Assembly: GCA_021413735.1 (NCBI GenBank)
Contig: JAIOPV010000195.1
Span: forward strand, 1-64,000
Source of the DNA: Planctomycetota bacterium
GTDB lineage: Bacteria > Planctomycetota > Planctomycetia > Gemmatales > Gemmataceae
DNA length: 64,000 nt
Reading direction: 5' to 3'
Below, one piece after another: positions 1 to 12,992 of the stretch. The notes beneath the pieces were generated by a model. That model was not told the origin of the DNA, ran no database searches, and saw only the letters and a program-made list of their open reading frames with translations. How positions within the stretch are numbered: position 1 is the stretch's first letter; every line of letters begins with the position of its first letter. The position numbers were made by a program, and so were the translations under genes.

Positions 1-141
1 GAGCATCTTCGAGTACATCGAGACGTTTTACAACCGCGTTCGGCGACACTCAACGCTGGGGTACGTTGCCCCGGCTGAGTATGAACGGACGCACAACCCG
101 ATTCACCGCTAAACGCTGTCCACTATCCGTGGGGAACTCCA
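1..141 (+). mobile_element. Right end of an IS3-family insertion sequence
   Basis: The first 112 bases encode the C-terminus of an IS3-type transposase. After its stop, the stretch at about 115-141 (TGTCCACTATCCGTGGGG then AACTCCA) resembles the right terminal inverted repeat found just after orfB in IS3/IS150-group elements. The left end lies outside the window, so the boundary at 141 is inferred from family habit and no target-site duplication can be checked. Confidence 0.6.
2..112 (+). CDS. IS3-family transposase OrfB, C-terminal fragment (cut by window edge)
   Basis: The 36 visible residues contain [17 protein letters not shown] followed by APAEYE. This is the conserved end of the rve integrase core of IS3-group transposases, just beyond the third acidic catalytic residue. 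The enzyme would catalyse copy-and-paste transposition of the element. The N-terminal part and the DDE residues are off-window, so I cannot tell whether the gene is intact. It lies beside an integrase-bearing region, which fits a hotspot of accessory DNA. Confidence 0.8.
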
Positions 142-312
142 GGCAGTGGGGCAACACTCATGTCGTCAGCCTTCTTGTGAATACAGCAGCATTCACCCGA
201 TTGCCTCATAACGATCTTGGTGAGCCGGGCGCGCAGCCGTGAAACGCTCATCTGGTTTTCTCGGTTTGGTTGATGATTCGTAGTTCAAGTTCTGCGGCGT
301 GAGAACACATCT

Positions 313-1574: not shown

Positions 1575-2642
1575 TCACGCCGGAATCGCTGTGGGTGGTT
1601 CGTTCGGGGTCTCGGGTTTGGCAGCAGGGCGAACCATCGCGGCAGCGTTGCGCAGAACGCCAGCCTGAGAAGTCAGGTGCGAATAGTGCCGGTGCAACAT
1701 CTGTGTTGAGCCATGCCCCAGCAAAGCGGCAACCTGAGCATCGGGCAATCCGTTCACCAACCCATCCGTCGCGAACGTGTGACGATAGCCGTAAGCGATC
1801 GCTTTCACCCCGGTCAGTTTTCGGAGCCGGCGCATACCCTCCATGATGGCCCGAGCCGTCCAGGGCTTGCCTCCACGACTTCTGAGCAGTGATCCGTCGG
1901 GGTGCTTCTCGACCAGCAGTTTCAGTTCCTCGACCAGATCGGGAGTCAGGAAGATGAGCCGCGGTCGGCCGGTATGGTCGGCTTTGTGTTCGTTCAACCG
2001 CACCAACCCCGCGTCGGGGTAGAAGTTCGTGGCGCTGATGCGGGCGATTTCCCCGGGTCGGCAACCAGTGCCGTGGAGGAGTCGCAGGACGAACCGAAAC
2101 CCAGCGCTTGCCGCGTTGATGAGTTTCGCGTGATCCTCGGCGCTGATGACTGTCGTTTCCGAACGGCTTCGCGATTTGGGCCTGGTGACACGCTCGACGG
2201 GGTTGTGTTCCAGCCATCCGTTCCGAACGCCCCAACCCAGACAGGCGGACACCGAACGCAAGCGAATGCCCTTCGTGGTTTCGGATACTCCGAGTTTGGC
2301 CAGCCAGCGAGAAACATCTGCGGGGATGAGGCGGTCGAGAGATGAACTGCCGAGTGATTCGCCGAACCCGTCGAGGTGATGGCGATACATACCGAGCGTT
2401 GCAGCCTTCAGCCGAGTTGTGGCGTCTGCGAGGAATGCGTCGATCAGATCGCGAACTGTGGTAACTGTGGGTTTGGGCTTCTTCTCAGCCGGGCCATCCG
2501 CCATGAGTTTGTAGAACGCTTCTTGCGCCAATTTCCGGTTGTTCTTACCCCTGATCCCGAGTGAAACAGACCGGCCCCCGATGGTTGCATACCATGCGTC
2601 CTTGCCGCTCCGATACCACGCCCCGTTGTTCGCTCTGGACAT
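1575..2642 (-). CDS. Tyrosine recombinase / phage-type integrase
   Basis: 355 aa, usual length for the family. The N-terminus (about 5-50) looks like an arm-binding domain, residues 60-150 are the SAM-like core-binding domain, and 165-325 the catalytic domain. Visible catalytic residues are Arg195 (GCRPGEI), Lys220 candidate (NEHKADH), Arg287 (YGYRHTF), His310 (LLGHGS) and nucleophile Tyr320 (HRHYSHL). The box II histidine of HxxR is replaced by Tyr284. The start codon lies about 80 bases from a tRNA-Leu gene on the other strand, the classic arrangement for an integrase at its attachment site. It probably mobilised the small genes at 313-1474. Confidence 0.92.
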   Translation of the reverse strand: MSRANNGAWYRSGKDAWYATIGGRSVSLGIRGKNNRKLAQEAFYKLMADGPAEKKPKPTVTTVRDLIDAFLADATTRLKAATLGMYRHHLDGFGESLGSSSLDRLIPADVSRWLAKLGVSETTKGIRLRSVSACLGWGVRNGWLEHNPVERVTRPKSRSRSETTVISAEDHAKLINAASAGFRFVLRLLHGTGCRPGEIARISATNFYPDAGLVRLNEHKADHTGRPRLIFLTPDLVEELKLLVEKHPDGSLLRSRGGKPWTARAIMEGMRRLRKLTGVKAIAYGYRHTFATDGLVNGLPDAQVAALLGHGSTQMLHRHYSHLTSQAGVLRNAAAMVRPAAKPETPNEPPTAIPA

Positions 2643-2719
2643 CGCCGGTGACCCCGGCGGCGTGAATTCACTGCCCTATTCACTGCCCTGTGCAGTGATG
2701 GGCTGACCGAAATGCTTAA

Positions 2720-2803
2720 AATCCAGTGGCGGAATTGGCAGACGCACTGGACTTAGGATCCAGCGGGAGCAATCCCATGGGGGTTCAACTCCCCCCTCTC
2801 GCA
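2720..2803 (+). tRNA. tRNA-Leu(UAG) with a non-pairing 5' acceptor strand (probable attachment-site copy)
   Basis: The D-arm, anticodon stem (CTGGA/TCCAG) with loop CTTAGGA (anticodon TAG at 2754-2756), long variable arm and T-arm (GGGGG TTCAACT CCCCC) are all intact. The 3' acceptor strand CTCTCGC plus discriminator A is present. The seven bases before the D-arm (AATCCAG) pair with it at only two positions, where GCGAGAG would be expected. No CCA is encoded. The gene therefore looks recombined at its 5' end by the adjacent integrase and is probably non-functional, unless the cell tolerates the broken stem. Confidence 0.75.
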
Positions 2804-2805
2804 CT

Positions 2806-3105
2806 CAAATCCCACAAGCACTTACACAACGCTTACCGCTCCCTCGCGGTCACGGCTCGCCAAACCTCGGAACCCTCATTCCAAACCGTGCGGACGATTA
2901 TCGGCCAGTCCGGGATACCGGGTTGGCGGACAATGTCGTCGTTCAGCACACACCACCGCTGACAATCACGCCCATCGCCAGCTTCTCCTTGCCGGGCACG
3001 CCTGAGATTCATCTCGGCACGTTTTGTATTTGAGCCGAACGCGGCGCGCTGGTTGCTGCTGTTACACCTGCCCATTGACCAGCCAATTCCCACGGAGAAC
3101 TCATC
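2806..3105. other. 300-base gene-free stretch after the tRNA, with a copy of a dispersed motif
   Basis: No convincing gene is seen. 2836-2864 (CCGCTCCCTCGCGGTCACGG then CTCGCCAAAC) is nearly identical to 14169-14199 (CCGCTCCCTGGCGGTCGCGG then CTCGCCAAAC), a short dispersed repeat. The last 15 bases carry the ribosome-binding site (CGGAG) of the gene at 3106. Confidence 0.5.
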
Positions 3106-3414
3106 ATGCCACGCGGCGACAAGTCGAAATACACCGACAAACAGAAACGCAAGGCTGAGCACATTGCCGACAGCTACGAGGAACGCGGCACCCCTGAGAG
3201 TGAGGCGAAGCGGCGTGCCTGGGCGACGGTCAACAAGGAATCCGGTGGCGGGAAGAAGTCGGGGAGCGGGCGCGGCAAGCCGGAGTCCCACGCATCCAGC
3301 GAGAAGGGCGGACGCACGGGAGGCGCTGCGTCGGCCTCACGAACCGCAGCGGAACGGTCGGCATCAGCCAAGAAAGCGGCCGCAACCCGCAAGCGGAACA
3401 AGGCCCACGCCTGA
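3106..3414 (+). CDS. Small basic plasmid-stabilization-like protein
   Basis: 102 aa, strongly basic. The opening MPRGDKSKYTDKQKRKAEHI and the following motif RAWATVNK then SGGGKKSGSGRG match a family widely labelled plasmid stabilization protein, although its biochemical role is unproven. The C-terminus is Ala/Lys/Arg low complexity (ASAKKAAATRKRNKAHA), like histone H1-type tails, which suggests nucleic-acid binding. A good Shine-Dalgarno (GGAG, about 10 bases upstream) supports the start. It opens the island that follows the tRNA and is read in the same direction as the kinase downstream. Confidence 0.75.
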   Translation: MPRGDKSKYTDKQKRKAEHIADSYEERGTPESEAKRRAWATVNKESGGGKKSGSGRGKPESHASSEKGGRTGGAASASRTAAERSASAKKAAATRKRNKAHA

Positions 3415-3538
3415 CACGGTCAGCCGCGGCTACCCAGGTGCCACTCCAAAAGTGGCATCAGCCAAACTAAGATACGCCCGCACGGCTTCCTCGCTTTTAT
3501 GGCGTTGTAACCGTTCGAGTACACAGGACGGGCTCGTC

Positions 3539-6500
3539 ATGGCAGAAGCGGACACGACGACTCCCAACAACGCAGAACGCCAACCCGCCCAGGAGCCAAA
3601 TCGACAGGCACAGCCGGTTGATGGCGAGCAACCGCCCCGCCTCCCGTTCGCGGTCGTCGGAATCGGCGCTTCCGCGGGCGGCCTGGAGGCCGTCGGTGAG
3701 TTTCTCGATGCCATGCCGACCGACAGCGGAATGGCCTTAGTGCTGATCCAGCACCTGCCACCGGAACACAATAGCATGATGGCCGAGATCCTCGGCCGCC
3801 GCACGAGCATGCCGGTCAGGCAGGTCGAGGACGGCATGGCGATCGAGGCGAACAGCGTCTACGTCATCCGCCCCGGGCACGTCCTGACCATCCGCGATGG
3901 CCGGTTACGTCTGGGACCACGGCTCGGCACCAGGCGTGCCGCCAACCGCCCGGTCGATGACTTCTTCAAGAGTCTGGCTGAAGAACAGCGTGAGCGAGCG
4001 ATCGCCGTCGTGTTGAGCGGGATGGGGTCGAACGGCACCGCCGGCGCTCAGGCGATCAAGGCTGTCGGCGGTCTCTGCGTCGCCCAGGATCCAGAGACGG
4101 CTCAGTTCCCAAGCATGCCGCGACACTTGATTGACGCGGGCTACGCCGACCAGATCGCCAGCCCGGCCGACCTCCCCGCCATTCTCCTCGGTTATGCCAG
4201 CCACCCTTACGCCAGCGGCGGCCGCGAGGCCGATGCCGATGCAGTGCTCCGGCGCGAGCGGCAGCACGTGAGTGAGGTTCTGGCAGTCGTTCGCGCCCGA
4301 ACCCGCCAGGACTTCGCCGGTTACAAGAAGCCGACCGTGCTTCGCCGCATCCAGCGGCGGATGGGCCTGACCCGCACCGAGAACGTGGGCGAGTATGCCA
4401 GGCTCGTGCGACAGACCCCCGCCGAAGCGACAGCTCTGGCCGACGATCTCCTGATTCACGTCACCGGGTTTTTCCGTGATCCGGATGCGTGGGAGTCGCT
4501 GCGCCAGTGCGCTATCGCTCCACTGATCGCCACCCGTGAGTCGGGCGGATCAGTCCGCGGGTGGGTGACCGCGTGCTCCAGCGGCGAAGAGGCGTACACC
4601 CTGGCCAGGCTGCTGAGGGAAGAGGCCGAACGGGCCGGCAAGTTGCTCGACATCAAGGTGTTCGCCACCGACCTCGCCGAGCGAGCGCTCGACCACGCCC
4701 GCGAGGGCGTCTACCCTGGCGGGATCGAAAGCGAGATCACCCCTGAGCGGTTGGAGCGATTCTTCACTCCGGGCGACGAGGTGTATCACGTCCGGCCGGA
4801 ACTCCGCGACCGGGTCGTGTTCGCGTCGCAGAACATTCTCCAGGACCCGCCGTTCAGTCGAATCGATATCGCCTCCTGCCGCAATCTGCTCATCTACCTG
4901 GAGCCGGAGATGCAGCAGCGGGTGCTGGGTCTGTTGCACTTCGGGCTGCGTGAAGGCGGTACTCTGTTCCTGGGCTCGGCCGAAACGGTCGCCGGGGCAG
5001 ACGACTTGTTCGAGCCGATCGATAAGAAATCGCGGATCTTTCGGCGGGTGGGCCCGACACGGCATGGGTCGGTCGAGTTCCCGCTCCCGCACTCCCACCT
5101 CTCAACTGGTGTTGAAGGCACCGGTGGCCGGGTCGGGATTCCGTCGCGGCCGGTGTTCAAACGTCGAGAAGGTGCCCGGCCTCCCGTCGAATACCTCACC
5201 CATCGCACGCTTCTGGATGCCCACACTCCGCCAGCCGTGACGGTGGACCGCGATGGTCGCATCCTGTACTACCACGGTGACACACGGCCGTTTCTCCAGC
5301 AACTCTCCGGTGAGCCGACCCGCGACCTGATGATTCTGTGCCAGGACGGCGTCCGTGGTGCGGTGCGGGTGGCGTTGCACCAGGCGGCAGCTCAGAACGC
5401 GCGGACCACGGCGGACGACGGGTGGATTGAACCTGAACCCGGACGCCGCGTGCGGGTCTCGGTCACCATCTCGCCTGCTTTGCCCGACCCGGATGGCACG
5501 GGAGGCGCGGGTGACTGGTTCGTTGTCAGCTTTACCGAGCGTGGGGAATTGCTGAAGCCTCTTCCGCCCGAGACGGACCTGGGCGACGAGACACGGCGAC
5601 TTCGGGCCGAACTGCGGACCACAATTGAGGAGTTGCAGACGAGCAACGAGGAGTTGAAGGCGTCCAACGAAGAGGTGATGAGCATCAACGAGGAACTCCA
5701 GAGCGCCAACGAGGAACTGGAGACGAGCAAGGAGGAAATGCAGTCACTCAACGAGGAGTTGACCACGGTCAACGGCCAACTCCGTGGCAAGATGGACGAG
5801 TATGCGGCCGCCAGCAGCGACCTCACGAGCTTGTTGGCCAGCACCGACATCGCTGTGCTGTTCCTCGACACCGCATTCCGCATCCGTCGATTCACGCCAG
5901 CCGTCCGCGATCTGGTGGACCTGATTGTCGGCGACGTCGGGCGGCCACTCTCGGCTCTGGCTCGCAAGTTCGACGATCCACGGCTGGACGACGACACACG
6001 GGCGGTGCTCGAACGCCTGTCCCCGATCGAGCGTGAAGTTGCGGCGGCCGACGGACGGCACTACCTGCGCCGGGTGACCCCCTACCGCACGACGGACAAT
6101 CGGATCGATGGGGTGGTGGTGACGTTCGTGGACATCACCGCCCGACTTCGAACCGAGGCGGCGCTGCGGGTGAGCGAGGAGCGACTGCGGCTGAGCCTGG
6201 AAAGCGCGACCGACTACGCCATCCTGACGCTCGATCCAGACCGTGTCGTGACCAGTTGGAGTCCGGGGGCAGAGGCTCTCTTCGGATATGTGGCAGCGGA
6301 GATCGTCGGCTGGTCGGCGGATCGACTGTTCACCCCCGAGGACCGGGCGGCCGGTGTACCGGTTTCGGAAATCGAGCAGGCCAAACTCGCAGGTCGTGCG
6401 GCTGATGAGCGGTGGCACATCCGTAAGGATGGGACACGGTTCTACGCTTCCGGAGTGCTCACGCCGCTGGGCGACCTCAATCGCGGGTGTGTGAAAGTCC

Positions 6501-7297
6501 TCCGCGATCTGACCGAGCGCAAGCGAGCGGAAGACGAGTTGCGGGCCGCACGCGACGAGTTGGAGACGCGAGTGATGGAGCGAACGGCCGAACTGACGGC
6601 GGCACTGGAGTCGCTGGAGGCGGAAATGTCCCGGCGGCGGGATTTAGCCCAGCGACTGGTGACCGCGTCGGAGGCGGAACGGCGGCGGGTGGCCCGCGAC
6701 CTTCACGATACCGTCGGTCAGACGCTCACTGGACTGGCCCTTGCGGTCGCGGGGGTGGCGAGTATCGGCCAGTTGCCAGAGGCGGTTACCGATAGGCTGG
6801 ATCAAGTTCAGCGGCTGGCCGACTCGCTGGGTCGTGAACTGCATGAGGTGTCGTTGCGGTTGCGGCCGACGGCTCTGGATGACATCGGATTGGAGACCGC
6901 GGTGCGGGCGCTGGTCGAGGAGTGGGCGCAGCGGACCGGGGTCTCGGTGGAATTCACAGCAACGGTCGATGGACGGTTCCCGTCTGAGGTGGAGACGGCT
7001 CTGTATCGCGTGGTCCAGGAGGCATTGACCAACATCACCAAGCACGCCGCAGCGTCTCGGGCGTCGGTCGTCCTGGGGCGGCGTGACTCCGAGGCTGTCG
7101 TCGTGATCGAGGACGGCGGCACCGGGTTCGATCCCCAGGCCGTGTTCGCTCCAACCCTGGGCCGCCGTGGCGGTCTCGGCTTGGCCGGGATGCGTGAGCG
7201 GGTGACGCTTCTCGGCGGTGCGGTGGAAATCGAGTCCGAGCCTGGCCGTGGCACCACCGTCATCGCCCGCATCCCGCTCGAAAGCGGTTCTCAGTGA
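3539..7297 (+). CDS. Hybrid CheB-CheR-PAS histidine kinase
   Basis: 1252 aa. CheB-type methylesterase domain at about 36-225, with Ser45 (GIGASAGG) and His72 (IQHLPP). The usual catalytic Asp is Asn165 (GMGSNGTAG). CheR methyltransferase at about 240-520 (HVTGFFRDPDAWE, WVTACSSGEEAYTLA, SCRNLLIYLE). A long heptad coiled coil (repeats of NEEL/NEEV) follows at about 680-760, then two PAS domains, then HisKA_3 with phosphoacceptor His1056 (ARDLHDTVGQ) and an HATPase_c domain (GGLGLAGMRERV). No membrane segment is evident, so it is a cytoplasmic NarL-type kinase. The start at 3539 follows AGGACGGG and begins just before the CheB fold. Partner: the LuxR-type regulator at 7575. Confidence 0.93.
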   Translation: MAEADTTTPNNAERQPAQEPNRQAQPVDGEQPPRLPFAVVGIGASAGGLEAVGEFLDAMPTDSGMALVLIQHLPPEHNSMMAEILGRRTSMPVRQVEDGMAIEANSVYVIRPGHVLTIRDGRLRLGPRLGTRRAANRPVDDFFKSLAEEQRERAIAVVLSGMGSNGTAGAQAIKAVGGLCVAQDPETAQFPSMPRHLIDAGYADQIASPADLPAILLGYASHPYASGGREADADAVLRRERQHVSEVLAVVRARTRQDFAGYKKPTVLRRIQRRMGLTRTENVGEYARLVRQTPAEATALADDLLIHVTGFFRDPDAWESLRQCAIAPLIATRESGGSVRGWVTACSSGEEAYTLARLLREEAERAGKLLDIKVFATDLAERALDHAREGVYPGGIESEITPERLERFFTPGDEVYHVRPELRDRVVFASQNILQDPPFSRIDIASCRNLLIYLEPEMQQRVLGLLHFGLREGGTLFLGSAETVAGADDLFEPIDKKSRIFRRVGPTRHGSVEFPLPHSHLSTGVEGTGGRVGIPSRPVFKRREGARPPVEYLTHRTLLDAHTPPAVTVDRDGRILYYHGDTRPFLQQLSGEPTRDLMILCQDGVRGAVRVALHQAAAQNARTTADDGWIEPEPGRRVRVSVTISPALPDPDGTGGAGDWFVVSFTERGELLKPLPPETDLGDETRRLRAELRTTIEELQTSNEELKASNEEVMSINEELQSANEELETSKEEMQSLNEELTTVNGQLRGKMDEYAAASSDLTSLLASTDIAVLFLDTAFRIRRFTPAVRDLVDLIVGDVGRPLSALARKFDDPRLDDDTRAVLERLSPIEREVAAADGRHYLRRVTPYRTTDNRIDGVVVTFVDITARLRTEAALRVSEERLRLSLESATDYAILTLDPDRVVTSWSPGAEALFGYVAAEIVGWSADRLFTPEDRAAGVPVSEIEQAKLAGRAADERWHIRKDGTRFYASGVLTPLGDLNRGCVKVLRDLTERKRAEDELRAARDELETRVMERTAELTAALESLEAEMSRRRDLAQRLVTASEAERRRVARDLHDTVGQTLTGLALAVAGVASIGQLPEAVTDRLDQVQRLADSLGRELHEVSLRLRPTALDDIGLETAVRALVEEWAQRTGVSVEFTATVDGRFPSEVETALYRVVQEALTNITKHAAASRASVVLGRRDSEAVVVIEDGGTGFDPQAVFAPTLGRRGGLGLAGMRERVTLLGGAVEIESEPGRGTTVIARIPLESGSQ

Positions 7298-7326
7298 CGC
7301 CGCTGCTTTATTGAATTGATAGGCGT

Positions 7327-7419
7327 TTGTGAGCGTCGAGCCGTCAGGCCGACGGTGGTTTTCGCTCGACCGACGGTTGTGTTAATCACACCGTCGAGCT
7401 TACGCTTCGACGCTCACAA
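7327..7419. repeat. 13-bp perfect inverted repeat flanking a GCCGTC palindrome
   Basis: TTGTGAGCGTCGA at 7327-7339 is the exact inverse complement of 7407-7419. Inside lies GCCGTCAGGCCGACGG, another near-palindrome. It separates the kinase from its regulator and looks like a dispersed palindromic element or a processing or attenuation site rather than a gene. Confidence 0.5.
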
Positions 7420-7574
7420 TGGTTTCAACACCGCATGACGCCCACTCCAGCATTGATGCGTCGGGTTGGCGGCGTGTCAGGAAAATCCCGACGCCATTCA
7501 ACCCGGCGAGCCGTAAGGCACGAATACCCATGCCCGTTCTCGGTGAACGCACCGAGTCAACTGAGGAGGGTTCT

Positions 7575-8222
7575 GTGAGTGATATCCGTATACTCCTGGC
7601 CGATGACCACGCAGTCGTTCGGGAAGGGCTCAAGTCGCTCATCAACGCGCACTCGGGGATGAAGGTGGTCGGTGAGGCGGCTGACGGACTGGAGGCGGTT
7701 AAGCTCGCGGCCGAACTCGACCCCGATGTCGTGGTGGTGGATGTGTCCATGCCAGCGCTCAACGGCGCGCAGGTGACGACTCGACTGCGTGAAATGCGAC
7801 CGGACCGCAAGGTGCTGGCGCTGACCGTACACGAAGACGTGGGGTACCTTCGTCTACTCCTGGAAGCGGGTGCGGTTGGGTACGTCCTGAAGCGGGCAGC
7901 GGTTTCCGAGTTGGTGCAAGCCATTCGTGTCGTGGCAGAGGGTAAAACCTATCTCGATCCAACCGTGGCAGGCAACGTTGTGGGAGGATTCGTCAACTCC
8001 CCACTCGAACAAGAGTGCACGGCCGAGTTGAGTGAGAGGGAGACGGAGGTACTCCAGTTGATTGCCCTGGGGTACTCGAACAAGGAGATCGGATCTCGGT
8101 TGAAGCTCTCCGTGAAGACGGTTGAGACGTACAAGACGCGGTCGATGGAGAAACTCGGTCTGCATGGTCGAGTGGACATTGTGCAGTATGCCGCACGTCG
8201 GGGCTGGCTCAAAACCGCTTAA
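7575..8222 (+). CDS. NarL/LuxR-family response regulator
   Basis: 215 aa. Receiver domain 1-120 with the acidic pair Asp10/Asp11, phosphoacceptor Asp56 (VVVVDVSMPALNG) and the conserved Lys (YVLKRAA). GerE-type helix-turn-helix at about 150-210 (LSERETEVLQLIALGYSNKE, VKTVETYKTRSMEKL). I chose the GTG at 7575 because GAGGAGGG lies 5 bases upstream and the next residues open directly into the receiver fold. An in-frame ATG upstream would add an unrelated leader. It is almost certainly phosphorylated by the HisKA_3 kinase immediately upstream, a standard NarL-type pairing, and acts as a transcription factor. Confidence 0.93.
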   Translation: MSDIRILLADDHAVVREGLKSLINAHSGMKVVGEAADGLEAVKLAAELDPDVVVVDVSMPALNGAQVTTRLREMRPDRKVLALTVHEDVGYLRLLLEAGAVGYVLKRAAVSELVQAIRVVAEGKTYLDPTVAGNVVGGFVNSPLEQECTAELSERETEVLQLIALGYSNKEIGSRLKLSVKTVETYKTRSMEKLGLHGRVDIVQYAARRGWLKTA

Positions 8223-8261
8223 GCCAAACGGACGGCATTCATCCGACGCAAGCCAACGGGA

Positions 8262-8708
8262 TCACGATCTGGTGAGCCCCGCAACTCGGTGGAGAACATT
8301 CGCCTCTGAACCCGCTGGGGAAAGGATGCCACGGATTCTCGCCAGGAGCAGGATCAGGGCGGTTGGGTCGGCAGGCTTGGCGAGATGCAAGTCGATTCCC
8401 GCGTCGGCCGAACGCTGCCTGTCGGCATCTGTGGCATAACCCGTTACGGCCACGACCAGCGGTTGTTTGTCCACCGCCTGTTCCCGCAGCCAACGGGCGG
8501 CTTCCCACCCGTTCATGCCCGGCAGGCCAATGTCCAGGAGGACCACGTCCGGCATTTGATCTTCAGCCGCGTCGAGAGCTGCCGGGGCAGAGCCAACGGC
8601 TCGCACGTCGCACCCGCACAGCGTTAGCAGTTCCGCGAGGGATTCGGCCGTGTCGGCGTGGTCTTCGACGATGAGAACGGAGAGTGGATTTGGGAGAGTT
8701 GCGATCAC
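8262..8708 (-). CDS. Single-domain response regulator (CheY-like receiver)
   Basis: 148 aa and only a receiver domain: acidic pair Glu15/Asp16, phosphoacceptor Asp59 (VVLLDIGLPGMNG), Thr in VAVTGYA and Lys in HLAKPAD. The last 20 residues carry no output domain. It starts at a GTG. It is convergent with the NarL regulator, 40 bases from its stop. Such stand-alone receivers usually relay phosphate or bind a target protein. It may be a second branch of the kinase in this island, but that is inferred from position only. Confidence 0.88.
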   Translation of the reverse strand: MIATLPNPLSVLIVEDHADTAESLAELLTLCGCDVRAVGSAPAALDAAEDQMPDVVLLDIGLPGMNGWEAARWLREQAVDKQPLVVAVTGYATDADRQRSADAGIDLHLAKPADPTALILLLARIRGILSPAGSEANVLHRVAGLTRS

Positions 8709-8946
8709 GATATCCTCCGCACTGTGGCGGTTGCCGGGTCTCTGATGGCGGGTCCCTCCACCGCGAGATTCGCGAGATCTAAAGATGGATCGTAATTGGC
8801 ACTCGCAAGAATCGAAAGGACGAAAGCGACCGCGGCGGCGCTTCTCTCAAAATCCCGACAGAGTACCGGGAAACCGCCTGTTGTTTGCTTTCGTGCATTG
8901 ACGAGGTCACCGGCAAGGCCAACTTGTGACGTGACGCTTCGCTTCA

Positions 8947-8975
8947 GATCCAGCGGGAGCAATCCCTCTCGCACT
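8947..8975 (+). other. Deleted tRNA-Leu remnant (probable att site at the island's right edge)
   Basis: 8947-8966 equals tRNA-Leu 2757-2776 (anticodon 3' stem through variable arm), and it then jumps to the tRNA 3' end. The T-arm is missing by a deletion between CCC repeats, which leaves TCTCGCACT. No functional tRNA can form. It marks the right limit of the putative island, two bases before the stop of the next gene. Confidence 0.65.
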
Positions 8976-8977
8976 TT

Positions 8978-10243
8978 TCAACGTCCGCCGATCGGCAGCG
9001 TCAGGAGTGGAGCGGAGCCGCCCTTGTCGGTGGAAAGCTGAAGTCGCGACAACTCGACCAGCAACGAGAAGGTTGATTTCGAGTCGCGGTCACGGTCGTC
9101 GATGTAGAACCAGTACCCGTGGTAACGCACAGCGACGTGAGCGGTTGCGGGCGGTTTTCTGCCTTCCGCCCAGCAGACATGGAACAGCCCGCCAAGCACT
9201 TCCTGCCAGTCAAACGGACGCCCATTCGCTCCCGCTGTCACCGGTGCCACACCACTGGCTGCGTGACATGGTGGAATCTCGACTCCGTTCGCCACGAAGA
9301 ACAACACCTGAAGCAGCGACCGCGTTTCGAGGTCGAGCGTGGCAAGTCCGTCCTTCGGAGCGTCCTTCAGGAATGGATCGAGTTTCGCCGTCGTGAGATC
9401 GAACGACGTTAGCGCCGGGTTCAGGTGGAAGATGCGGCAAAACGTCTGGAAATCCGGGTCATCCTTCGCTGAGTCGGCGACTCGCAGAATCGGTTGCTGT
9501 TTCTTACGCACCACTCGCCAGTTGTCGGTCTTCTCGACCTTCCGGAACTCCAGACCGTCCTTCGCCGCGTTGCCCAGTGCCTCGGCGGTGATCTTCGCGG
9601 CGGGAATCTCATCGCTCGCGGGGTCGTCCTTTTCCTCGATGAAGACGGTTGCCATCTTGCGGTCGGTGAGTCGTTGAAGAGCGCTGACCGCAGTGAGGAA
9701 GTCCGCATATTCCGGCGGATCACGCGGCGTCGGGCCGCTCGCCGTCTCGGCATTCGACACCCAGTTCATGTTCTCCAGCCACAGCCGAAACACCGTCGAA
9801 ACCGGCCAGGTTGTCTTGCTCAGCGAAGCCGTCGATTCGAGCGATAACGGCGTGAACAGTCGTCGCGTGAAGTCCTGGTCGTCCTGCGGGCTGTAGGTCA
9901 GCGTCGGACGAGTGGCACCGCCGAGGTTGAACTGCGGCAATACTGTTCCGCGATAACCTCCGGTTGCCTGCCCAGCCGCGGCCGAGGTGAAGAAGGGCAT
10001 GATCCCGAGGCTCTGCGTGAACTCGTACTGATCGGCCAAGGAACTGACCGCGAGACTACTTGGCGTGTCGGTGTAACGCAGCCGCACGATGTTCAGGAGG
10101 AGTTGCTCTTCCGTGCTTGCTTTGACGGCTTCGTTGTAGCGGATGCGGTCGATGGGCAGCGCTTTCGGACCAAACGAACACCCGACCGGGAGCAGCGACA
10201 GCCCGAGGAGCCAAACAAAGTGCTGGCGAACCAAGAACGCCAT
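8978..10243 (-). CDS. Hypothetical lipoprotein
   Basis: 421 aa. The N-terminus has a hydrophobic stretch and a lipobox (LSLLPVGC), so it should be secreted and lipidated at Cys22 or so. Next comes a conserved motif, EEQLLLNIVRLRYTDTPSSL, which I associate with a family of uncharacterised bacterial lipoproteins sharing LLNIVRLRY. The rest is soluble, with a WWE-like or beta-rich C-terminus (YHGYWFYIDDRDRDSKSTF) that also ends many members of this family. Function unknown. The gene ends two bases from the tRNA remnant, so it is probably the ancestral chromosomal neighbour of that tRNA. Confidence 0.82.
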   Translation of the reverse strand: MAFLVRQHFVWLLGLSLLPVGCSFGPKALPIDRIRYNEAVKASTEEQLLLNIVRLRYTDTPSSLAVSSLADQYEFTQSLGIMPFFTSAAAGQATGGYRGTVLPQFNLGGATRPTLTYSPQDDQDFTRRLFTPLSLESTASLSKTTWPVSTVFRLWLENMNWVSNAETASGPTPRDPPEYADFLTAVSALQRLTDRKMATVFIEEKDDPASDEIPAAKITAEALGNAAKDGLEFRKVEKTDNWRVVRKKQQPILRVADSAKDDPDFQTFCRIFHLNPALTSFDLTTAKLDPFLKDAPKDGLATLDLETRSLLQVLFFVANGVEIPPCHAASGVAPVTAGANGRPFDWQEVLGGLFHVCWAEGRKPPATAHVAVRYHGYWFYIDDRDRDSKSTFSLLVELSRLQLSTDKGGSAPLLTLPIGGR

Positions 10244-10560: not shown

Positions 10561-11280
10561 TCACTCTTTCTTCAGCACGCCATCGAGAACCCAGCAGCCG
10601 CGGAAGTGGGGTGCCTTCGCATTGCGGCAATGCCCCAACATAACCGGATTGGTGCAGCCCGCTTTCTCAAGTTCGTTGGCGAGTGCCGGCATCGCGGAGA
10701 AGTCACGGCTTTCGTACATCTGATTCGCGAGCGTGGTCGCGGCTTCGGTTCGCCAGGCTGGTTCAAACGCGACCGGTTGGAACGGGTTCCCGAACGCATC
10801 CCACACGACCGCTCGCAGGACCGGAATGAACTCCGGCGACACGACCGTCTCGGCCAACATATCGGTGTTCGCACCAGCCTTTGACGCCACCGCTTCGCCC
10901 ATTCGCGTGCCCACGGCTGACACCGGAAGCGGAGTTGTGCCGGCGAACGCAACAGCCCACGCGACCTGATGCTGAACCATTGGGTTCAGCCCTTCACGCA
11001 CGTTCGTTTCGGACCACCGCACATACTTTTCGTAAGCCTGCACCGCGACGATCCGTGCGTGCGAACGAGCCTTCTCCAGTTCCGCGGCGCTGGTGGCACC
11101 ATCGGCGTAGCGTTCGATTGCATCGACCGACGCGATCAACTCCGGATGATCGAGGAGATCGCCCGCAGCTCGGCAGAACGCCGCGGCGAGCAACCGGAGT
11201 TTCCGGGCCGACGCACGCGGTTCGACGTGCTGGACGTGGAGAACGAAATTCGGCTCGGAAAGCCACTCGGCTTCTGTCAT
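10561..11280 (-). CDS. MTEAEWL-family Gemmata paralogue of unknown function
   Basis: 239 aa. It opens MTEAEWLSEPNF, then has a Leu/Ala-rich helical segment (KLRLLAAAFCRAAGDLL), the signature FGNPFQPVAFEPAWRT, and ends CRNAKAPHFRGCWVLDGVL. This set of motifs marks a large family specific to Gemmata-type planctomycetes, usually present in many copies per genome. Predicted cytoplasmic, with no signal peptide or membrane span. Its role is unknown, and I would not assign an activity. It is separated by about 140 bases from the transporter gene upstream on the same strand. Confidence 0.8.
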   Translation of the reverse strand: MTEAEWLSEPNFVLHVQHVEPRASARKLRLLAAAFCRAAGDLLDHPELIASVDAIERYADGATSAAELEKARSHARIVAVQAYEKYVRWSETNVREGLNPMVQHQVAWAVAFAGTTPLPVSAVGTRMGEAVASKAGANTDMLAETVVSPEFIPVLRAVVWDAFGNPFQPVAFEPAWRTEAATTLANQMYESRDFSAMPALANELEKAGCTNPVMLGHCRNAKAPHFRGCWVLDGVLKKE

Positions 11281-11417: not shown

Positions 11418-12992
11418 TCACGTCGCGGTTTCGGCGCGGGTCGTGTCCTCGTCCAGATGCTTCGCGCCCCAAATCCACAGCACCCCACTGACGAGAACCA
11501 ACGGTGAGATGGCGACGAACGCCGTCTGCAAACTGCTGTAATCCGCGATCAATCCCAGGATCGGCGGCGAGATGGCGTCGCCGATCGCGTGGATGATCAG
11601 GATGTTGATGGCGAACGCCGTCGCGCGAATCTTCGACCGCGTGACGTTCGCCAGGATCGTGTTCGCGGGGCCGGTGTTGAAGAACAGGAAGAAAACCGCC
11701 ACGAAGAGGAACACCCACCCAAGCGGGAACGGGATGTACAGCATCGCAATGTACGCCGGGAACGCCACGATCATGCCCCACCCCGCGACCTTGAAATACG
11801 CCCCCTTGATGCCACGGTTACGCAAGTAGTCGCCGAGCATGCCGCCAATCAGCGTCGCCACCAATCCGCTGATGACCACAATCGCCCCGAAATAGAGCCC
11901 GATCGTGCCGTTCGTCAGCGACCCCTCGGCCGGCGAACTGTCGAACGCCCACGAACTGTAAAGCATGAACTCGTTCTCCGTGAGCGTGCCACGCAGTTTC
12001 ACCCGGAACTCCGGCAACGTCATTCCTTGGGGCCACGCCACAGTCTTCAGCTTGTCGGTTACTGCCTCGGGCACCACTCGCGTTCCAGCGCTATCCACGA
12101 TCTTTTCGAGCTTGGTAATCGCCTTGTCGTCGAGAGTGAAGCGTGCTTCTCGCTCGAAGAGGTAGAGTTGCGCCATCGTTGCCACGCCGCCCAGAACAAA
12201 TGTCGATGCCGTCATGCCCGCACTGCACAGCACGAACGACCTAACGCCTTTCAGTTCCCGCAGCACATCCCAGTAACTTGGGCCCTTCGGTTCGGGTGGT
12301 GCGTGCCATTCGGCCGCTGCCTTCTCGGAAGTCGGAACCGATTCTCCCTTCTGTGCCGGACTCATGCTCCGCACGTCACGCATGAAGAAGCACAACACGC
12401 CCAGCACGATGCCTGGAATCACTGCGACGTGAAACGCTCCACGCCAGCCGAGTTCCGTTTCTGCGATCTGCGAACCGATCACGAAGCCCAGCGCGCTACC
12501 CACGGGAATCGCCATGTAGAACCACGACATGATCCGACCGCGATGATCTACCGGATAGAGATCCGAGAGCATCGCGGGTGCGACGGGACCGTAAGCCGCT
12601 TCGCCAACCCCCACAAGGCAGCGAGCGAAGAAGAGCAGGAAATATCCCGTCGCAAGCCCGGTTCCCCCTGTCGCGAGGCTCCAGAGAATCACGGCAATGC
12701 CAACGAGAACCCAGCGCGACATCGTATCGCCGAGGCGACCAAACAGCGGCGACAGGCACATATACGCGACCATGAAGGCGGTCGTGAGTGCGCCGAGTTT
12801 TGTCTGTGCGAGGGGATCGTCAGGCCGGAGAATCGTGGCGTCGAGGCGAATTTTTGGCAGCGTGGCCGAGAGAATTTGCCGGTCGATGTAGTTGAACAGG
12901 TTGATTCCGAGCAGGAGGGCGAGGGCCCAACCGGCACCTGGCACCGGTCGGCTCGGTCCGCCGTGCGTCGATGTCGTTTCCCCGCTCAGCAT
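11418..12992 (-). CDS. MFS transporter, spinster-like
   Basis: 524 aa with about twelve hydrophobic segments. The first (LALLLGINLFNYIDRQIL) carries the NYxDR motif typical of spinster-like and hexuronate-type major facilitator proteins. The loop motif FGRLGDTMSRW after TM2 and the VGVGEAAYGP motif in TM4 are also spinster-like. A hydrophilic insertion of about 90 residues lies between TM7 and TM8 (ARFTLDDKAITKLEKIVD and following), longer than usual. The substrate cannot be read from sequence; lipids, sugars and organic acids are all known in the family. Inner-membrane location. Confidence 0.9.
   Translation of the reverse strand: MLSGETTSTHGGPSRPVPGAGWALALLLGINLFNYIDRQILSATLPKIRLDATILRPDDPLAQTKLGALTTAFMVAYMCLSPLFGRLGDTMSRWVLVGIAVILWSLATGGTGLATGYFLLFFARCLVGVGEAAYGPVAPAMLSDLYPVDHRGRIMSWFYMAIPVGSALGFVIGSQIAETELGWRGAFHVAVIPGIVLGVLCFFMRDVRSMSPAQKGESVPTSEKAAAEWHAPPEPKGPSYWDVLRELKGVRSFVLCSAGMTASTFVLGGVATMAQLYLFEREARFTLDDKAITKLEKIVDSAGTRVVPEAVTDKLKTVAWPQGMTLPEFRVKLRGTLTENEFMLYSSWAFDSSPAEGSLTNGTIGLYFGAIVVISGLVATLIGGMLGDYLRNRGIKGAYFKVAGWGMIVAFPAYIAMLYIPFPLGWVFLFVAVFFLFFNTGPANTILANVTRSKIRATAFAINILIIHAIGDAISPPILGLIADYSSLQTAFVAISPLVLVSGVLWIWGAKHLDEDTTRAETAT

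Follow-up and report, generated by a model that had tools for sequence, protein, structure and literature searches.

Here we report that the 6.1-kb interval at positions 2812-8946 of the window, as we call the whole 64,000-nucleotide stretch of DNA that was analysed, is probably a CIME-like relic, that is, an older insertion into a tRNA-Leu gene that would have lost its integrase end and been displaced from the tRNA by a younger element. To its left stands an 87-bp copy of tRNA-Leu and to its right a damaged copy of 29 nt; the two lie in the same orientation with 6,135 bp between them (Table 1). The original prediction of an interval that has no integrase and is bounded by directly repeated tRNA-Leu 3' pieces was borne out by our analysis. 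The locus can be read as a record of apparently two insertions at one tRNA gene, and it illustrates that an island seemingly devoid of an integrase makes more sense once the adjoining DNA is considered.

Table 1. Features of the tRNA-Leu locus and complete elements of the related group
Feature	Location	Strand	Remarks
Tyrosine integrase, 355 aa, of the younger neighbouring element	1575-2642	-	Pfam Phage_integrase, 5e-14
Two ATTCACTGCCC repeats	2666-2688	+	Exact motif at 2666 and 2678
attR of the younger element	2725-2811	+	tRNA-Leu(UAG) nt 6 to 3' end, plus 7-8 nt
Interval between the two tRNA-Leu pieces, 6.1 kb	2812-8946		Putative older, decayed island
Small protein, 102 aa	3106-3414	+	No Pfam or NCBIfam match at E 0.001
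CheB-CheR-PAS-HisKA_3-HATPase sensor kinase	3539-7297	+	Pfam; ATG at 3539
NarL-type response regulator (receiver and LuxR-type HTH)	7419-8222	+	Pfam; start may be further in
Single-domain response regulator	8262-8708	-	Pfam
T-arm-deleted tRNA-Leu fragment	8947-8975	+	Probable damaged attR of the older island
Right-flank protein, 421 aa	8978-10243	-	Stop codon starts 2 nt beyond the fragment
Complete element	G064:C200		tRNA-Leu(UAG), 8.8 kb, integrase, 71-bp attR
Complete element	G000:C130 (107469-112828, L133)		tRNA-Leu(CAG), 5.2 kb, integrase, 59-bp attR

A T-arm-deleted tRNA-Leu fragment at the right boundary

The fragment at 8947-8975 reads GATCCAGCGGGAGCAATCCC followed by TCTCGCACT on the forward strand and, in tRNA numbering, fuses nt 38-57 of the tRNA-Leu(UAG) of this genome to nt 78 onward. 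Its first 20 bases (8947-8966) match the tRNA exactly, positions 8964-8975 correspond to the tRNA 3' end and the next 1-2 nt, and the 20-nt gap, which includes the T-arm, lies between CCC runs. Two mismatches to the tRNA fall in the anticodon loop, immediately to the left of the exact part. At up to three mismatches, the 29-mer occurs once in the window and in none of 100 shuffled sequences, and its 25-mer core has one site in the genome to which the window belongs (G000) and none in 18 congeners. The match to tRNA-Leu is no chance event: a second copy with the T-arm deleted between CCC runs, as predicted, is supported by the sequence itself, by its uniqueness and by the shuffles, and the feared recurrence of the fragment at many unrelated loci was not seen in these genomes. 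The sequence variants of the fragment (GATCC and TCTCGC) are those of the tRNA of its own genome and not those of G008 and G013, which carry GTTCC and CTTCGC; because of this agreement, we conclude that the fragment was copied from the tRNA-Leu gene of its own lineage. An assembly error at 8947-8975 may also be the source of the fragment.

The T-arm deletion creates a 7-pair hairpin followed by ACUUUU (window 8947-8981; -10.7 kcal/mol; equally good in 3 of 200 shuffles). This hairpin might stop transcription; it was not among the predictions of a terminator scan of the window.

The first copy belongs to a probably younger, integrase-bearing element

The original prediction took the copy at 2725-2811 for the home tRNA gene, which it is not: it represents the attR of an integrase-bearing element to its left, and the interval therefore lies outside that younger element, on its far side. 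ARAGORN found no tRNA in the window, and the copy, which scores 36.4 bits against Rfam, is missing the first five nucleotides of the tRNA. The intact tRNA-Leu(UAG) is located on another contig (G000:C15:9214-9298), and the two are identical over 87 bp, from tRNA nt 6 to 7-8 nt beyond the 3' end. A gap of 82 bp separates the window copy from the start of the integrase gene on its left, whose frame is uninterrupted; integrase homologues occur near tRNA-Leu genes in G064, G069 and G107 and on contig C130 of the same genome, and a scan of viral contigs with the integrase gave no match. Two copies of ATTCACTGCCC lie between the integrase and the window copy, and three lie behind the intact tRNA on C15. 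Judged from their position and repetition, these repeats are probable arm-type integrase sites. The neighbour's tRNA-Leu copies on C15 and in the window, with repeats inside both ends, demonstrate the use of tRNA-Leu as an integration site.

The first bases of the window's contig (C146) fall within the end of a transposase-type frame (Pfam rve_2, 1.1e-6), C15 breaks off within a frame that matches a transposase weakly (HTH_Tnp_1, with an E of 0.013 that is below its cut-off), and 27 bp near the ends of the two contigs are 89% alike and oriented as inverted ends. From the transposase ends on both contigs, one IS copy, which we take to be of the IS3 type, probably bridges C15 and C146. If a single IS does so, the younger element would be about 13 kb long, with its attL at the intact tRNA and its attR at 2725-2811. 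It has an integrase and, at both ends, repeats and a tRNA-Leu copy, as is characteristic of the group of elements described below. These two transposase-like contig ends, with their similar inverted ends, are at window positions 1-142 and at positions 1-145 of locus L009.

Genes and composition of the interval

The interval has neither an integrase nor transfer genes, as in a CIME: Pfam shows solely signalling domains in its called genes, and the search for an integrase or its remnant in 2812-8990 gave no credible match (best E 1.0). The name 'plasmid stabilization', originally proposed for the small protein at 3106-3414, found no support in Pfam or NCBIfam at E 0.001. No copy of ATTCACTGCCC was detected in 2812-8946 at up to two mismatches (average in 30 shuffles, 1.9), and the interval thus shows neither trait of the ATTCACTGCCC element group, an integrase beside attR and repeats at both ends. 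Among 9-mers shared by the 300 bp at each end of the interval, there was no direct and one inverted pair. The G+C content is 63.9%, versus 59-61% in the surrounding DNA, with an ordinary third-position G+C, and the composition gives no clear foreign signature. Besides the fragment, nothing in the interval points to an element, which counts against its reading as an island.

The present mobility of the interval is doubtful. That its mobility must come from elsewhere, as stated earlier, is not proven; since the end repeats of the group are missing even at two mismatches, a dead relic is likelier than an element moved from elsewhere.

Distribution of the kinase cluster in related genomes

With the CheB-CheR portion of the kinase as the query (window 3593-5600), matches at E 1e-60 were obtained in 14 of 41 genomes, including that of the window, and close homologues in two of the 40 relatives, G013 and G014 (58% and 61%). 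The NarL-type regulator has homologues of 66% in G013 and 64% in G014, and the single-domain regulator one of 56% in G013. All three signalling genes stand in the same arrangement in G013, and the kinase and the NarL-type gene are present in G014. At these two kinase loci, no window ORF from outside the interval found a match (E 1e-15, 45% identity, 40% coverage), and neither locus is at a tRNA-Leu gene. Because close copies are few and at unrelated loci, we regard the cluster as accessory, without conserved synteny to its flanks; the feared synteny of the kinase genes with the window flanks is absent from both loci.

These observations bear on the idea that the kinase genes have long been part of the chromosome downstream of tRNA-Leu, with the fragment left by an unrelated, vanished element. 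The ordinary composition would agree with such a history, as would the CAAATC beyond the tRNA that is common to the tRNA-side end of the younger element and the left end of the interval, which is expected if the attP of the younger element matched the resident flank. However, the cluster was not found behind tRNA-Leu(UAG) in five relatives, in each of which 9-17 kb was read, and the kinase query found nothing at E 1e-60 in G008, one of the two closest congeners. We consider this explanation very improbable.

The kinase cluster of G013 lies 1.1 kb to the right of an intact tRNA-Arg(CCT) gene that is adjoined by an integrase, and 38.9 kb to the left of the intact gene the 5' part of this tRNA recurs as a 47-nt copy (G013:C3:3137934-3176936; L115, L154). 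As a candidate mobile unit, the cluster was rejected: it seems to lie outside that island, and the 20 kb read beyond the cluster contained no credible copy of tRNA-Arg. A tRNA-His call in G014 falls inside the kinase-homologous stretch and was taken as a false positive.

The right flank and the search for an empty site

The right-flank protein (8978-10243) had matches at E 1e-10 in 13 of 41 genomes and close homologues (77-78%) in three of the 40 relatives, G007, G009 and G012, where its gene is located about 15 kb upstream of a phosphatase gene and tRNA-Leu(UAG), in an arrangement other than that of the window. tRNA-Leu(UAG) directly follows the phosphatase gene at six of six loci, all of which were chosen through the phosphatase gene, and the sequence after the tRNA is common to G012 and G007 alone, as judged with queries from G013, G008 and G012 only. 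Three genes taken from this 15-kb stretch in G012 have their homologues on three different contigs of the G000 genome, and in G008 and G013 these are likewise scattered; the genes at 11418 and 12971 stay together in G008 and G013, away from tRNA-Leu.

An empty site, consisting of a complete tRNA-Leu(UAG) followed by CACTTTTCAACG and the 8978-10243 gene, was sought via the right-flank gene and the upstream phosphatase gene in 40 relatives (18 congeners and 22 others) and was not found, and the right-flank gene did not directly follow tRNA-Leu(UAG) at any of the five relatives' loci read. The precise absence of the interval from a relative, proposed as a proof of the island, was not obtained, and gene order at the locus is not conserved in these relatives. 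Since the surroundings of the right-flank gene and of tRNA-Leu vary among relatives, gene order is too loose for an empty-site test.

The tight right junction could be a rearrangement breakpoint, given the different arrangement of the right-flank gene in three relatives. The fragment would then be a scar joining a site in tRNA-Leu to one immediately beyond the 8978-10243 stop codon, and the kinase genes would have arrived otherwise. The 2-nt distance between fragment and stop codon is in keeping with such a scar, as are the rearranged 15-kb linkage of this gene with tRNA-Leu(UAG) in G007, G009 and G012 and the spread of the three G012 homologues over three G000 contigs. The scattering of the same homologues in G008 and G013, however, makes this linkage weak evidence; moreover, a simple rearrangement moves a tRNA end without duplicating it, whereas the fragment is a second copy that points in the same direction as the attR, as integration gives. 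A rearrangement scar thus appears unlikely to us.

On contig C1 of G016, at least 12 matches to the 10561-11280 protein have identical score and identity, which would fit repeated copying of a single gene.

Proposed origin of the interval

Integration of an element into a tRNA gene leaves, at the far end of the element, a copy of the tRNA 3' part that points away from the tRNA. Two tRNA pieces in a row suggest two insertions and, under the simplest order, the tRNA-proximal one would be the later. For the CIME-like relic that we favour, we propose that an older element integrated into the 3' part of tRNA-Leu(UAG), its distal att site surviving as 8947-8975. A later deletion may have removed the integrase end together with the 5' part of this site, and if it reached into the older attR, this would explain why the fragment starts only at nt 38; the T-arm may have been lost by slippage across the T-stem hairpin between the two CCC runs. 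A second integrase-bearing tRNA-Leu element would then have entered the same tRNA gene, taken the tRNA-proximal place and left the 87-bp attR. Of the tRNA-bounded island originally proposed, the two direct tRNA-Leu pieces and the accessory kinase stand, and the first tRNA copy has to be ceded to the neighbouring element.

Relation to known systems

As characterized in PMC5704250, CIMEs have lost integration and transfer genes, have kept attL and attR, and are accreted with incoming elements in the same target. The interval resembles them in having no integrase, in being bounded by copies of the target-gene end and in lying beside an integrase-bearing element in the same target. In contrast to a CIME, which keeps both sites, the distal site is cut here to 29 nt and is a putative att site. 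We would therefore place the interval among structures of the CIME or tandem-island kind and would not class it as a CIME proper, its damaged 29-nt distal attR being only putative. The ssrA genomic islands of Dehalococcoides, according to PMC3146451, are arranged in tandem, and 15 of them have no integration module; they are similarly placed behind an RNA gene and delimited by copies of its 3' end, but involve ssrA as the target and a serine recombinase, compared with tRNA-Leu and a tyrosine recombinase here. The tRNA-Leu elements at G064:C200, G000:C130 and C15/C146 share the target gene family, and the neighbour of the interval is one of them; unlike the interval, they possess an integrase as well as ATTCACTGCCC-type repeats at either end. 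Events of this kind are known, and the locus adds an example, not a new system.

A group of tRNA-Leu integrative elements

Homologues of the integrase (E 1e-60) were identified in 10 of 95 genomes of the family, including that of the window, and all 14 integrase loci listed among them were scanned for ATTCACTGCCC with flanks of up to 1.5 kb. Two exact copies are present within about 60 bp of the integrase start at six of the 14 loci (L119, L120, L121, L122, L124 and L129), and two copies with one mismatch at L125. The sole repeats at L130 sit behind the tRNA and were hence assigned to the neighbouring element, and no copy was found within these flanks at six loci (L123, L126, L127, L128, L131 and L132). 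The end repeats provide a simple handle for finding further tRNA-Leu elements. The 8-mer TTCACTGC occurs three times at the tRNA end and twice at the integrase end of the complete G064 element, whose tRNA end contains four copies of ATTCACTGCCC at up to one mismatch, two of them exact; in the C130 element, the 8-mer occurs four times at the tRNA end, twice at the integrase end and once inside. A DUF3987 protein is common to the C15 and G064 elements (51% over 529 aa; both confirmed by Pfam), that of G064 having an additional Prim-Pol domain, and a search of the C130 element for this protein gave no match.

A copy of tRNA-Leu(CAG) nt 1-64 about 31 kb to the left of the intact gene in G069 is taken as the far end of an element there. 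The shared tRNA blocks begin at nt 6 in C15/C146, nt 16 in G064 and nt 30 in C130, and extend to nt 64 in G069; strand exchange would occur between nt 30 and 64 if the zone is the same in all four elements. This putative zone bears on the idea of the interval as a cis-mobilizable element, which the neighbouring integrase would still move, by itself or together with the neighbour, through the 87-bp attR and the fragment. The tandem place beside an integrase gene with an uninterrupted frame and the retention of nt 38-57 of the zone in the fragment would allow this, and CIMEs accreted beside integrative elements are described in PMC5704250 and PMC3146451. Nonetheless, the fragment has lost nt 30-37 and 58-64 of the zone and the interval is devoid of arm-type repeats, so that continued movement seems to us quite improbable. 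A more general proposal is that compact tRNA-Leu elements of 5-13 kb form a family that stacks at one tRNA and leaves behind host-type signalling modules still movable by the integrase of a neighbour; such a family would be marked by a tyrosine integrase, by ATTCACTGCCC-type arm sites numbering three or four on the tRNA side and two on the integrase side and, in no fewer than two members, by a DUF3987 protein. We put this forward as speculation.

A literature search for tRNA-Leu integrative elements in Gemmata or Planctomycetes yielded nothing on point among the matches listed, a thin basis for calling them undescribed. The C130 element contains an inverted 33-nt copy of the 5' part of tRNA-Leu (G000:C130:112560-112591; 94% identical), situated about 150 bp from the tRNA 3' end. 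At G064:C200:13648-23744 (L134), one tRNA-Leu(UAG) is accompanied by two integrases of the same group, one directly to the left of the tRNA and the other at the far end of the right-hand element, and GGTGCCC repeats were spotted by eye beside the left integrase.
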